Made by a program: the position numbers and the translations under genes
In this document: positions 13,801 to 20,298 of the stretch, one piece after another
How positions within the stretch are numbered: position 1 is the first letter of the stretch
Layout of the letters: every line of letters starts with the position of its first letter
Notes under the pieces: generated by a model
The model's input: only the letters and a program-made list of their open reading frames with translations
Database searches by the model: none
Told to the model about the DNA's origin: nothing
From: Desulfovibrionaceae bacterium
Lineage (GTDB): Bacteria > Desulfobacterota > Desulfovibrionia > Desulfovibrionales > Desulfovibrionaceae
Assembly (NCBI GenBank): GCA_009773665.1
Contig: WSYE01000002.1
Span: forward strand, 124,001-188,000
DNA: 64,000 bases
Direction of reading: 5' to 3'

Positions 13801-14146
13801 GTCCGCCTCCCACATATGACCTGCCAGTCGTTTGCCCGGACAGCGCGGCTTTGTCAAAGCGTGCGCCCCGACGCAACACGGAGCGCTGTCATCGCATTAT
13901 CTGGTCCAAGTGCTTTCTCTTTGCGAACTTGCCCGTGACCAGGCTTCTCTTCTTTTCATTTCTAGAAACACCCCGCCTGCGGCATGAGACCCGGCACAAA
14001 CGAGCGCGTCGCGTCGGCTGCAACGCGCTTAGCAGTAATCCAAAATTTCTGATTTCAACATGAAAATGTGCATCAGCTGTATTTACATTATGCGTGCATT
14101 TCGTGTATCGCGTCGGGACACCACCCGCGAATGCAAGGAGATCCAT
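13801..14146. other. divergent control region, rib operon / mucR-like gene
   Basis: 346 bases between the start codons of ribE (minus) and the MucR-like gene (plus). The right half is AT-richer than the surroundings and should carry both promoters. I saw no conserved riboswitch core and no convincing gene. AAGGAGAT before 14147 is the ribosome site for the regulator. Confidence 0.4.
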
Positions 14147-14545
14147 ATGGATGACTATTTGAAGGAAGCATTGGAAATCGTCAAAGCCCAGGCCAGCGTC
14201 CGCAACATGACTGAGGAGGAAATCACCTCCATGGTCAAGAAGGTTGCCGAGGGCATACGCGGCATCAGCGAAGGGACCCCCACTGTTGAGGAAGGCACCA
14301 CCCCCGCCCTGGACCCCAAAAAGGCCATCAAGGAAAAATCCGTTACCTGCCTGGAGTGCGGAAAGGTGTTCAAGATTCTCACCAAGAAGCATCTTGCCAC
14401 TCACAACGTCACCGCCGACGAATACAGAGCAAAGTACGGCTACAAGAAGGGCACCCCCCTGGTGAGCAAGTCCCTCCAGCGTGAGCGCCGTGCCAAGATG
14501 AAAGACATGAAGCTTTGGGAGAAGCGCAAAAAGGCTCCCAAGTAG
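14147..14545 (+). CDS. MucR/Ros-family zinc-finger transcriptional regulator
   Basis: A 132-residue DNA-binding protein of the MucR/Ros family. The zinc finger lies at about residues 65-85: VTCLECGKVFKILTKKHLATH supplies the Cys2-His2 ligands, followed by the family helix NVTADEYRAKYGYKKGTPLVSKSL and a basic tail. In other proteobacteria these proteins silence AT-rich horizontally acquired genes and control exopolysaccharide genes. That is suggestive here, because an AT-richer polysaccharide region lies 19 kb away, but no link is shown. The start ATG at 14147 has AAGGAGAT upstream; the frame is open 29 codons earlier without a ribosome site. A strong terminator follows. Confidence 0.88.
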   Translation: MDDYLKEALEIVKAQASVRNMTEEEITSMVKKVAEGIRGISEGTPTVEEGTTPALDPKKAIKEKSVTCLECGKVFKILTKKHLATHNVTADEYRAKYGYKKGTPLVSKSLQRERRAKMKDMKLWEKRKKAPK

Positions 14546-16344: not shown

Positions 16345-17091
16345 TTATTTGCGGGTCATGTCCGACCAGGCCCAGACCACGCGCCCCACGATGGCGCGAC
16401 GCAGGTCGCCGTGGAAATCGGTCTCCAGGCTGTGCACGGAAGGGGGATAGAAGCGCTTGTCCGGGTTGTCCGACACGTAGGTGAGCAGCGTCTGCCCTTC
16501 CTTACGGCTGGTGTAGACGCGTTTGACCGCGACCTCGGCGTCGGGGCCGGGCTCACGCACCAGAAAGATGGAGCCGTCGGGCTCAGGTCGAAAATCGTCG
16601 CGGTCCACCAGCACGATGTCCAGGGGGTGCAGCGTGGGCACCATGGACTCCTGCCCTTTGCCCACTTCCATGGCAACCAGGTTGGTGCGGTAGCGAATGG
16701 AGGCTTGGTCTTTCATGGCCAGCACCCAGCCGCGCACGGCGTCCTCGGGAATGAGACCCGGCCCGGCGGCCACGGCCCCCTGGGCCAGGGGAATGGCCAT
16801 GTAGTTCTCGGCTGAAGGCTGGGTGGCGAAGTCCGCCACGCCGCCGGACTTCCTTGCGGCCACGAATACCACCGGTTTGGTGGTATCGCGCTCCTCGTCC
16901 GGGAAGAGAATGCGCGCCCCCAGGGCCTCCAGTATGCGCGCCACGGTGTCGAAGCGTGGAACGGCCTTGCCGGAGAGAAATTTGGAGACGTTGGGCTGCC
17001 CGACTCCGGCCTTTTCGGCCAGAGCCGAGGGACCGCCGTGATCGCGCGCAAGGCGGGCGATGCCCTGCTTGACTGTGTCCACCATGCTCAT
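16345..17091 (-). CDS. CI-like repressor, HTH plus S24 peptidase
   Basis: A 248-residue phage-type repressor. The N-terminal helix-turn-helix (about 20-55, PSALAEKAGVGQPNVSKFLSGK) is followed by a linker and a LexA/CI-like S24 domain with the catalytic serine in GKGQESMVPTL (Ser149) and the lysine in VAVKRVY (Lys190). Such proteins hold prophage lytic genes off and may self-cleave after DNA damage. The AAGPG sequence near residue 109 could be a cleavage region but this is unsure. The start ATG has AAGGAAG upstream. No integrase, capsid or terminase is in the window, so this is a remnant, a domesticated regulator or the edge of a decayed element. Confidence 0.8.
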   Translation of the reverse strand: MSMVDTVKQGIARLARDHGGPSALAEKAGVGQPNVSKFLSGKAVPRFDTVARILEALGARILFPDEERDTTKPVVFVAARKSGGVADFATQPSAENYMAIPLAQGAVAAGPGLIPEDAVRGWVLAMKDQASIRYRTNLVAMEVGKGQESMVPTLHPLDIVLVDRDDFRPEPDGSIFLVREPGPDAEVAVKRVYTSRKEGQTLLTYVSDNPDKRFYPPSVHSLETDFHGDLRRAIVGRVVWAWSDMTRK

Positions 17092-17406: not shown

Positions 17407-18747
17407 TTATTTTTCGTCCTCTTGCCCCAGGCGAAGGATCTTGCGCAGGGTGTCCTTGGTGATGCCGAGTTCCCGGCAGGCGGCGTTGCGGTTGCCCATG
17501 TTGCGTTTCACGGCCTTCACGGCGGCGTGATAGCGCACCTCGTCCATGGTCAACGGGCCGTCCCCTGAAAGCGGGCGGATGGCCGGACGCAGGGTTCGCG
17601 GCAGGTGGTCCACCTGAATGAGCCCGCCGGGGCACAAAATACAGGCGTACTCCAGAATATTCTCAAGCTCCCGGATGTTTCCCGGATAGCCGTAGCGCGT
17701 CAGGATACGCATAACTTCGAGCGTCACGCCCCGGATGTCCTTGCCCAGCGATTGCCGCCTGCGAGCCAGGGCGTGCTCCACCAGCAGGGGTATGTCCTGG
17801 CTGCGCTCCCGCAGGGGCGGCAGGGTCAGCTGCACCACGTTCAGCCGGTAGTAGAGGTCGCCACGGAAGGCCCCCTCATCCACCATGCGGGCCAGATCGC
17901 GGTTGGTGGCCGCAATTACACGCACATCGGCGGGCACGCTCTCCACGCCGCCCAGCGGTTCAAAGACGCGCTCCTGCAGGGCTCGCAGGATCTTGGATTG
18001 CAGGGAGTAGGGCAGATCCCCCACCTCGTCCAGCAGCAGGGTGCCGCCATCGGCCAGTTGGAAGCGCCCCGGCTTGTCCCGGCGGGCGTCGGTGAAGGCC
18101 CCGGCCTTGTAGCCGAACAGCTCGGACTCCATCAGATGCTCAGGCAGCGCGCCGCAGTTCACGGCCACGAACGGCCCGGAGGAGCGCCCGGAGAGCCTGT
18201 GGATGGCCCGCGAGAAGAGCTCCTTGCCGGTGCCCGATTCGCCGAGCAGCAGCACTGTGGAATCGCTTCCAGCGATCTGGGGCAGGATGCGCACCAGCTC
18301 CGACAGGTGGGGGTCTGTGGTGCAGAAGTCGTTGGACGAGGTGCAGCCCACAATGCGCTCCACCGCACTCTCGCCGCTCAAGTCGCGAAGGGTCTCGACC
18401 CCGCCGATGATCCTGCCGTCCTGGTCCTTGAGCGGAGCCGCGCTCACGCTCACCTGGACGGTGACCCCGTCGGGGCGGTGCACGCTCATGATGCGGTGGG
18501 CAATGTGGCGGTCTTCCTGGATGCAGGAGCGCAGCACGCACACGTCCTTGCAGTTGTCGGTGCGGAACAGCTCCCAGCACTTGCGGCCTACGGCCTCGCC
18601 GTGGCTTACGCCGGTGATGAGCTCAGCCGACCTGTTCAGGAAGGTTATGTTCCAGTCCAGATCTATGGTAAAGACGCCATCGGCCACGCTGTCCATGATG
18701 AAGGAGCACATGGACGTGCACGGGAAAGGCCGCTCGAAATTTTTCAT
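17407..18747 (-). CDS. sigma-54-dependent activator with PAS domain
   Basis: A 446-residue enhancer-binding protein. An N-terminal PAS domain (~15-125) is followed by the AAA+ domain (Walker A GESGTGKE 169-176; sigma-54 contact loop GAFTDA 216-221, a variant of GAFTGA; Walker B LLLDE 237-241) and a C-terminal Fis-type helix-turn-helix (~405-446, NRNAACRELGITKDTLRKIL). There is no receiver domain, so the signal is probably sensed by the PAS. That domain has four closely placed cysteines (57, 66, 70, 75) which could bind metal, an Fe-S cluster or a redox signal. It is divergent from the 19012 gene, whose promoter looks sigma-54 dependent, and it is the natural candidate to control it. Confidence 0.92.
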   Translation of the reverse strand: MKNFERPFPCTSMCSFIMDSVADGVFTIDLDWNITFLNRSAELITGVSHGEAVGRKCWELFRTDNCKDVCVLRSCIQEDRHIAHRIMSVHRPDGVTVQVSVSAAPLKDQDGRIIGGVETLRDLSGESAVERIVGCTSSNDFCTTDPHLSELVRILPQIAGSDSTVLLLGESGTGKELFSRAIHRLSGRSSGPFVAVNCGALPEHLMESELFGYKAGAFTDARRDKPGRFQLADGGTLLLDEVGDLPYSLQSKILRALQERVFEPLGGVESVPADVRVIAATNRDLARMVDEGAFRGDLYYRLNVVQLTLPPLRERSQDIPLLVEHALARRRQSLGKDIRGVTLEVMRILTRYGYPGNIRELENILEYACILCPGGLIQVDHLPRTLRPAIRPLSGDGPLTMDEVRYHAAVKAVKRNMGNRNAACRELGITKDTLRKILRLGQEDEK

Positions 18748-18828
18748 ACCGCCCCTTTCAAGGCCCCCCGGACCTCGCGCAGCACGACCCCACTGTGCCC
18801 CCCTAGCCTATCGCGGTCAATCCGATAC

Positions 18829-18845
18829 GGACGATTATTTCGTCC
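18829..18845. promoter_or_regulatory. 6-bp palindrome upstream of activator gene
   Basis: GGACGA-TTATT-TCGTCC is a perfect inverted repeat 82 bases upstream of the activator start codon. It may be an operator for the activator gene or a second upstream site for the divergent promoter. Confidence 0.35.
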
Positions 18846-18874
18846 TGCCCAACAGCCCCCATACCCGGTGAAAT

Positions 18875-18894
18875 TACAATATGCTGATATTGTA
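18875..18894. promoter_or_regulatory. perfect 8-bp palindrome, candidate activator site
   Basis: TACAATAT-GCTG-ATATTGTA is perfectly symmetric and lies 12 bases upstream of the -24 element of the sigma-54 promoter and between the two divergent genes. Fis-type C-termini of sigma-54 activators bind such dyads. The distance (centred near -50) is shorter than the usual -80 to -150, so it may also serve autoregulation. Confidence 0.6.
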
Positions 18895-18906
18895 CATTTT
18901 TTGAGT

Positions 18907-18922
18907 TGGCCCGGTTTGTGCT
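18907..18922 (+). promoter_or_regulatory. sigma-54 (-24/-12) promoter
   Basis: TGGCCCG-GTTT-GTGCT matches the sigma-54 consensus TGGCACG-N4-TTGCW, with the essential GG and GC exactly in register. Transcription would start near 18933, about 80 bases before the ATG of the downstream gene. Confidence 0.8.
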
Positions 18923-19011
18923 CTTTTTTTCACAAGCGGGGCGTGGGCAGCCCCTGAACCCCAACAAGGAGAGCCGGGCGCTCTCCATATATAACGCGAG
19001 GAGGAAGGGAC

Positions 19012-20046
19012 ATGACACTTACACTCACCATCTCGGGACGTCGTTGCGATCTGTCGCTGCATCCCGTGTCTTCCAAGACTGTCGAGCGCATCCAGAGTAT
19101 GGGGCGCAAGTTCTACACAAAGAAGTACATTCACTGGTGGCGCAACGGCAACACCAGCACCTGCGGCATGAAGTTCGACGATGAATGCTCCGTGCGGGTA
19201 AACCTGGGTGGCGAGAACCTCCCCTTTGACTCCGCTGCCATTTCACAGTCCGCAGTGCTGCTGCGCCGCCGCCACTACCTGGAGAGCAAGGCCCGCTATC
19301 TGGCGTTGCTCGGCTATGACGACGAATACTGCAACATGACCTGGACCTGGAGCAACATCACCGAATACGACCCAGCGAAGTTCGACTTCTTCGTGCATCG
19401 CTGGGACCGCATCCTGGGCGAAGAGGACTTCCTGATCCTGGACGACGTGCGCTACGCGAGCGATTTCGCGGACGAACAGGACTGGGGCGGCAGCTGCGGC
19501 TTCAGCCTGGTGGACCCCAGGGTCATCGACCTGGACGAGGTGCGCCGCGAACTTGGCATCGAACCTCCCGCGCCCAAGGCTCCAAAGGCGCGCGCGCCCA
19601 AGAAGGCCGCAGCGCCCGAAGTGACGGCCCAGGCGTCACCCAAGACGGATCCAGCGCAGCACGCCCCCATCGTCGAGGATTTGCAGCCCGCGCCTCCGTG
19701 CGACAACGGCCTGGCCGAGTTGATCATCGGGGTGGACAACCCCAACGCCACAGGCATGCACGGCTGCACCACCTGCAAGAATTCCATCCGGGTGGATCTG
19801 CGCATCGAGGATGATGTGGTGGTCCAGGCAGGCGGATGGGCCGCCGGATGCGACTACAGCAAGCAATGTCTTACCGCCCTGGCCTCGATGCTTCCGGGCA
19901 TGACCGTGTACGACTGTTACACCCTGACCAACGAGGACCTGCACCCGCTGCTGAAGAGGGTCATCAGGAAGCTCGACTGCGACACCTTCACGGTGGGAGC
20001 GCTCAAGCTTGCCCTGCGCGACTGGGAAAAGAGGAACGCCGCCTGA
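19012..20046 (+). CDS. unknown domain fused to IscU/NifU-like scaffold domain
   Basis: A 344-residue protein with three parts: an N-terminal domain I do not recognise (~1-185; rich in Trp, Tyr and acidic residues, Cys at 12, 51, 59, 107, 162), an Ala/Pro/Lys linker (~186-225) and a C-terminal domain (~232-344) resembling IscU/NifU. The three scaffold cysteine positions are recognisable: GCTTC (252/255), AAGC (280) and LDC (323). The ending LDCDTFTVGALKLALRDW aligns well with the IscU C-terminus. The CGD of IscU is CKN here, so the Asp that tunes cluster release is gone. It may bind or carry an Fe-S cluster or metal. The start ATG follows GAGGAGGAAGG, downstream of a sigma-54 promoter. The gene is monocistronic, with terminators after it. 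Confidence 0.7.
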   Translation: MTLTLTISGRRCDLSLHPVSSKTVERIQSMGRKFYTKKYIHWWRNGNTSTCGMKFDDECSVRVNLGGENLPFDSAAISQSAVLLRRRHYLESKARYLALLGYDDEYCNMTWTWSNITEYDPAKFDFFVHRWDRILGEEDFLILDDVRYASDFADEQDWGGSCGFSLVDPRVIDLDEVRRELGIEPPAPKAPKARAPKKAAAPEVTAQASPKTDPAQHAPIVEDLQPAPPCDNGLAELIIGVDNPNATGMHGCTTCKNSIRVDLRIEDDVVVQAGGWAAGCDYSKQCLTALASMLPGMTVYDCYTLTNEDLHPLLKRVIRKLDCDTFTVGALKLALRDWEKRNAA

Positions 20047-20069
20047 TCAGCAACGCAGAACCCAGCATC

Positions 20070-20104
20070 ACGGGCTGAAGGGACCCCACCCCCCTTCAGC
20101 CCGT
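20070..20104 (+). terminator. terminator hairpin after IscU-like gene
   Basis: ACGGGCTGAAGGG (20070-20082) pairs perfectly with CCCTTCAGCCCGT (20092-20104), starting 24 bases after the stop codon. There is no T-run, but the position and 13-bp stem support termination. Confidence 0.65.
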
Positions 20105-20267: not shown

Positions 20268-20298
20268 AGGCCCCGGACGGATCGTCCGTCCGGGGCCT
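20268..20298. terminator. strong rho-independent terminator
   Basis: A 14-bp perfect stem (AGGCCCCGGACGGA, 20268-20281, with 20285-20298) closed by a 3-base loop and followed on the plus strand by TTCGCTTT. It lies between the convergent IscU-like gene and the ABC permease gene and probably serves both. Confidence 0.8.

Follow-up and report, generated by a model that had tools for sequence, protein, structure and literature searches.

An OrpR-like sigma-54 activator gene and a divergent gene for an N-domain–IscU-like fusion protein in Fundidesulfovibrio share a conserved predicted operator

The D. vulgaris complement of 37 EBPs includes several one-component proteins whose genes are divergent from sigma-54 promoters, as set out in part of PMC4641369, and Table 1 of that paper lists the motif GAFTDA for DVU2106 (OrpR) alone. 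Passages of PMC3897727 describe DVU2106 as binding palindromes located between the EBP gene and the sigma-54 promoter, with a requirement for IHF, and as repressing its own sigma-70 promoter. The locus analyzed here carries an activator gene related to DVU2106 next to a different target gene.

The window, i.e., the entire stretch of 64,000 nucleotides that was analyzed, belongs to contig C21 of genome G000, which is 66% complete and whose genus (g1) was taken as Fundidesulfovibrio of the family Desulfovibrionaceae. As initially annotated, it contains two divergent open reading frames, one for a sigma-54 activator of 446 amino acids on the minus strand (17407-18747) and one for the target protein of 344 amino acids on the plus strand (19012-20046), and this gene pair is real. 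The target protein starts with an N-domain, and a comparison of genomes revealed an N-domain gene with a divergent activator at 22 of the 75 fetched N-domain-bearing loci, which represent part of the places where the N-domain was found. The suggested co-occurrence of the gene pair in other genomes was thus confirmed, with the pairing kept in three genera (g1, g29, and g25). On the plus strand, 3' of the target stop codon, a terminator-like 13-base inverted repeat lacking a T run (ACGGGCTGAAGGG / CCCTTCAGCCCGT) was read from the sequence at 20070-20104. The window also encodes a MucR/Ros-family regulator (14060-14545; PF05443, 6.1e-43) and a repressor with an HTH and an S24-peptidase-like domain (16345-17091), relatives of which are located near the activator gene in four other Fundidesulfovibrio loci (L031, L033, L038, and L061). 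Neighbors that were common within g5, g8, or g45, namely response regulators, a histidine kinase, and a Na/H exchanger, were taken as synteny.

The activator was predicted to comprise a PAS domain (about residues 16-125), an AAA+ domain (144-307), a lid (313-388), and a C-terminal HTH. The PAS-AAA+-Fis architecture claimed beforehand was recovered by Pfam matches to PAS, Sigma54_activat (1.3e-66), and the AAA lid, with the HTH_8 (Fis) match of 16.7 bits lying under the cut-off of 22. The Sigma54_activat AAA+ domain, a GAFTGA-type loop in the form GAFTDA, and the C-terminal HTH assign the protein to the sigma-54 EBPs, and rpoN is present in the genome of the window. All four cysteines that had been noted in the PAS domain (C57, C66, C70, and C75) were found at these positions. 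The first three were invariant in the 22 other linked activators and in 13 unlinked paralogues; C75 was kept in 16 and 12 of these proteins, respectively. In the family, a PAS search gave matches in 129 of 288 genomes.

The 13 unlinked paralogues examined showed 52-60% identity to the activator. Genes for SGKGG-type (Mrp/MinD-like) ATPases were present within the fetched flank of nine of them, seven of which also had NifX-like proteins nearby, and the orp cluster likewise contains Mrp/MinD-like ATPase and NifX-like neighbors. Neither type of gene was found in the fetched flank of the other four paralogues (L199, L200, L203, and L204). Two genomes (G034 and G321) possess both a linked activator and an unlinked paralogue next to an Mrp/MinD-type ATPase gene. 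GGGCG-N7-CGCCC sites, or sites close to this form, were located 77-81 bases from a promoter-like site at four of the 13 paralogue loci (L196, L200, L203, and L204), of which only L196 has orp-like neighbors; the remaining paralogue loci had GGGCG-type sites 47-132 bases from a promoter-like site, or none. Judged by sequence and gene context, the activator of the window is a paralogue, not an orthologue, of OrpR/DVU2106, as it sits by the N-domain gene and away from orp genes. Because it is such a paralogue and carries the cysteines of the paralogue set, the metal or redox sensing proposed in the initial annotation is supported, albeit indirectly. For OrpR itself, Fievet et al. (2021) reportedly described redox sensing via a [4Fe-4S] cluster in the PAS domain. 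In OrpR, cysteines of this kind ligate the cluster.

The intergenic region contains a -24/-12 sigma-54 promoter on the plus strand (TGGCCCGGTTTGTGCT, 18907-18922), which fits 10 of 12 consensus positions. Its GG (18908-9) and GC (18920-1) are ten bases apart and in register, just as had been described. A best score of at least 10/12 was obtained for 1.5% of 5000 random 250-mers drawn from related loci. When the linked promoters were aligned by their -24 element, a palindrome of the form GGACG-N7-CGTCC emerged, which had been absent from the initial account of this locus. In the window it is located at 18829-18845 (GGACGATTATTTCGTCC, unstranded), and the -24 element follows 78 bases downstream. 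The 23 linked promoters (the window and 22 loci of g1, g29, and g25) all had their best match to this pattern within 300 bases at a distance of 78-80 bases ahead of the -24 element, with no mismatch over the ten positions in 14 promoters, one in six, and two in three. At this spacing, the -24/-12 score was at least 9 in 22 of the 23 promoters, the exception being L035, the linked promoter of G002, with a score of 8 and GA instead of GC at -12. Among 125 starts of N-domain genes, some of which were counted twice where named and unnamed loci overlap, unlinked promoters showed a match with at most one mismatch only at L089, where it was GC-rich and at another distance. From this comparison, the palindrome is likely to be the operator of the activator.

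The case for this predicted operator is based on its fixed position beside the gene and not on genome-wide rarity. In the window, the pattern occurred at two places compared to 0.12 expected, the second one (20275-20291) being GC-rich and located downstream of the target gene. A composite of operator and promoter showed no genome-wide enrichment across 34 genomes, with 53 places compared to 68 in the reversed control, and in the window's own genome it was found at one place, the target gene, compared to two in the reversed control. When an AT-rich spacer was required, the operator search of seven genomes returned five places, compared to zero in the control. Of these, three are N-domain promoters (G000, G030, and G323); in addition, G034 has one where its linked activator gene ends, and G323 has another elsewhere. 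The activator was therefore not classed as having a single target. The second AT-rich GGACG-N7-CGTCC site of G034 has the coordinates L041:7554-7570, corresponding to G034:C11:177553-177569.

Beside the operator, the sequence GGTCAA at 18815-18820 (TTGACC on the minus strand) could be the -35 region of the activator's own promoter, and 21 of the 23 linked promoters have it at most 20 bases upstream of the operator. By analogy, its position would fit an autoregulation like that of DVU2106. In four g29 promoters (L064, L068, L071, and L073), TGTGA-N6-TCACA-like dyads were observed between operator and promoter, which we take to resemble FNR/HcpR sites.

A different element had been noted initially, namely a 20-base dyad directly upstream of the promoter (TACAATAT-N4-ATATTGTA, 18875-18894, unstranded). 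The dyad exists and its 8+4+8 arrangement has perfect arms, but it is not conserved: among 212 fetched loci, only L001 and L109 contain it, and these are the window's own DNA. Because it was absent from all other fetched loci, including the sister locus L031, whose activator is 97.5% identical, it was rejected as an operator. Taken together, the proposal that the sigma-54 activator controls the IscU-fusion gene is supported by the anatomy of the promoter, the pairing in three genera, and the conserved predicted operator. On comparison of sequences, this regulatory anatomy is well supported, more strongly than by the evidence first presented and with a different operator.

The N-domain of the target protein (residues 1-185; 19012-19566, plus strand) is followed by a low-complexity Ala/Pro/Lys linker (19567-19704, plus strand) with low pLDDT in the model. 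The proposed structure prediction gave a confident AF2 model of the N-domain (pLDDT 87, pTM 0.79). The domain was found in 85 of 348 genomes and 16 of 59 genera of the class and, among the matches listed, always in the family f1; the named loci with the domain number 42, including two fragments. All 47 N-domain rows share, among others, C12, D13, H17, W43, C107, W111, and W113, of which C12, H17, and C107 might form a metal site. The search of Pfam up to an E-value of 1 gave no family for the N-domain, and an NCBIfam match (E 0.36), which overlaps the end of the domain, was at chance level. The same holds true for five Pfam families obtained with the 47 members, each with at most three members and a best E-value of 0.066, and GreB (PDB sequence, E 0.041) was also taken as a chance match. 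Foldseek against the PDB revealed no fold match (best E 0.13, probability 0.02). In BFVD, matches to five uncharacterized phage proteins were obtained with a probability of 1.00 and a query TM of 0.55-0.64. None of 28 candidate stretches from viral_contigs was confirmed by sequence as an N-domain relative, and a search of phages and plasmids gave one weak place (E 0.3) and none, respectively. By these sequence searches, the N-domain defines a family confined to Desulfovibrionaceae among the genomes searched.

Outside Fundidesulfovibrio the N-domain is unfused: among the 40 named loci L061-L100, a C-domain was present only in L061, which is a Fundidesulfovibrio locus. In the seven g1 genomes, all ten N-domain copies are fused to the C-domain. 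Judged from these sequences, it is the N-domain that is conserved together with the regulator, and the IscU part was added at the level of the genus. Genomes of the Nitratidesulfovibrio type (L085-L089, L176, and L178-L180) contain two diverged N-domain genes in tandem, the first of which has a sigma-54-like promoter (11/12) but neither a linked activator nor the operator at its usual spacing. Many stand-alone N-domain genes of g5 and g8 (L146-L174) have promoter-like sites about 60-80 bases upstream, often ending with TATGCA. Since these promoters lack the operator described here, a different activator may act on them.

The C-domain of the target protein (residues 232-344 and stop codon; 19705-20046, plus strand) had been called IscU-like, and the IscU/NifU match on which this assignment depends was found. 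In Pfam, NifU_N was the only family matched by the whole target protein up to an E-value of 1 (residues 245-343, E=1.5e-7, 32.1 bits with a cut-off of 22), and hhalign of the C-domain with canonical NifU rows gave 99.2% and an E-value of 1.4e-19 over 99 columns. It scored far below what NCBIfam requires for IscU and NifU, and in the full-length model the domain is of low confidence. C25, C50, and C93 of the domain align with the three canonical ligand cysteines, which are all present in nine of the ten fused copies, C25 being missing only in L039. The Asp following the first Cys is lost in nine copies, kept only in L036, and replaced by Asn in the window; the His before the last Cys is lost in all ten. 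A GLPxxK/LPPVK chaperone motif was not found in any of the ten fused copies; new conserved residues occur in GCxYS(R/K)QC. Because the Asp is mostly and the chaperone motif wholly lost, the domain was not filed as an IscU orthologue; by sequence, it is a divergent IscU/NifU_N relative. The subfamily, present in 20 of 199 genomes from 2 of 44 genera (all seven of g1 and 13 of g25), is fused to the N-domain only in Fundidesulfovibrio. In g25, at a Solidesulfovibrio-type locus (L053:2896-5036), a stand-alone IscU-like relative with a 12/12 sigma-54 promoter is divergent from another PAS-Sigma54_activat-HTH regulator. The suggested role of the fusion protein as Fe-S carrier or repair factor appears plausible.

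Comparison of the N-domain loci revealed a link to hydrogenase genes. At 10 of the 75 loci, in three genera, the N-domain gene is located directly behind cooF and on the same strand in a Coo-type operon (L034, L036, L039, L040, L140, L141, L142, L163, L177, and L185), and at three loci in two genera (L046, L145, and L147) it follows hynB-hynA-hynC-hypC. The copy at L046 (5982-6401), behind hynAB-hynC-hypC, is a gene fragment without the first ~88 residues. The Coo operon corresponds to cooMKLXUH-hypA-cooF; it and the Hyn operon were named with the help of NCBIfam matches to their families. The linked hydrogenase operons contain hypA or hypC. Linkage to coo or hyn subunit genes was thus found for 13 of 75 N-domain loci compared to none of 27 control loci, four of which showed weak hypA-like matches. 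A close CooH (E under 1e-115) together with an N-domain was present in 27 genomes, in 11 of which the genes are adjacent, and many Coo-bearing genomes lack the N-domain gene, for example nearly every g50 genome among those listed; the idea of a strict companion of Coo hydrogenase was therefore rejected. No N-domain copy was found in the fetched flank of the Coo operons of the window's genome (L205) and of G001, G003, and G004, and none of the activator-linked copies is located beside hydrogenase genes. In a tree, the Coo-linked copies of g1, g29, and g42 clustered with other copies of their own genus, except for L039 and L185, which have long branches. As these copies mostly group by genus, the Coo placement would have arisen in each of the three genera independently, or been maintained there; the tree agrees with separate recruitment as well as with gene conversion.

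These results can be combined in a circuit in which an Fe-S- or redox-sensing sigma-54 activator controls an Fe-S accessory protein with a link to hydrogenases. Resting on position and conservation, this proposal has in our view an even chance of being correct. The OrpR paralogue, a one-component EBP, would bind to GGACG-N7-CGTCC at 18829-18845 and, once bound, switch on the sigma-54 promoter 78 bases downstream. In its PAS domain, C57, C66, and C70, together with C75 where present, most likely ligate an Fe-S cluster, by analogy with OrpR. Since the PAS domain would carry such a cluster, transcription would follow redox or Fe-S status, the direction of this response being conjectural. The N-domain probably recognizes a client, and the divergent IscU-type domain probably holds an Fe-S cluster or passes it on. 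As copies of the N-domain gene adjoin cooF or hynAB-hynC-hypC, [NiFe] hydrogenases or their Fe-S partner subunits would be the likeliest clients. A more far-reaching version is rather unlikely, namely a homeostatic loop in which a cluster-bearing activator controls an Fe-S scaffold dedicated to a client, with the N-domain representing a new adaptor family for maturation or repair of Coo and Hyn hydrogenases and having captured an IscU of its own in Fundidesulfovibrio to form an enzyme-specific fusion for [NiFe] hydrogenases.

The same circuit might instead serve a general redox or O2-stress protein, which is possible but doubtful; the hydrogenase neighbors would then reflect co-expression, and the IscU-like domain would act as a cluster store or sensor and not as a donor. 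This would suit the 62 of 75 loci without a coo or hyn match in the fetched flank, the sigma-54-like promoters that many stand-alone copies have of their own, and genera such as g25, in which the N-domain is present and a close CooH is not. It would also suit the IscU subfamily, whose loss of the HscA-type motif and, in most copies, of the Asp would favor holding a cluster over passing it on, as in IscU mutants. However, a shared condition of expression would not require so specific an arrangement as the position right after cooF in three genera and after hypC in two. That the IscU-like domain has no Fe-S function, serving protein-protein contacts or the binding of a metal such as Zn or Ni, so that the protein would assist hydrogenases as a nickel or metal chaperone partner, is improbable; hypA or hypC in the linked operons and the new conserved residues in GCxYS(R/K)QC speak for it, but the three ligand cysteine positions are kept in nine of ten fused copies and the N-domain occurs without IscU domain in other genera. 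An ordinary pairing of an EBP with an orphan accessory gene and no redox link has precedent in the several one-component EBP genes divergent from sigma-54 promoters among the 37 of D. vulgaris (as given in part of PMC4641369), yet the invariant cysteines common to OrpR-type paralogues make it very improbable.

According to part of PMC6345978, critical gaps remain with respect to Fe-S biogenesis in anaerobes. A scaffold fusion that appears to be governed by an OrpR-type regulator and has hydrogenase-linked relatives offers a concrete and testable case. Two further additions are an uncharacterized protein family, present in 85 of 348 class genomes, and the operator predicted for an OrpR-like regulator.

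In comparison to known systems, the activator resembles OrpR (DVU2106) of D. vulgaris Hildenborough, which is likewise a one-component EBP of the PAS-AAA+-Fis type with GAFTDA and has palindromic sites between the EBP gene and the sigma-54 promoter, and it has C57, C66, and C70 in common with the OrpR-type paralogues. Near the latter, GGGCG-type half-sites were seen, whereas the predicted operator of the window has GGACG, and the targets of OrpR are the orp genes, whereas that of the window activator would be the N-domain gene. The C-domain is homologous to the N-terminal scaffold of IscU/NifU (PF01592), with the three ligand cysteines in place, and the order of strands followed by helices is matched in its low-confidence model. 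While IscU/NifU_N keeps Asp, His, and GLPxxK/LPPVK, the subfamily described here has mostly lost the first and entirely lost the other two, and unlike the scaffold it is fused behind an unrelated domain. With respect to the Coo-type energy-converting [NiFe] hydrogenase operon, some N-domain copies follow cooF, whereas the copy of the window lies outside such an operon.
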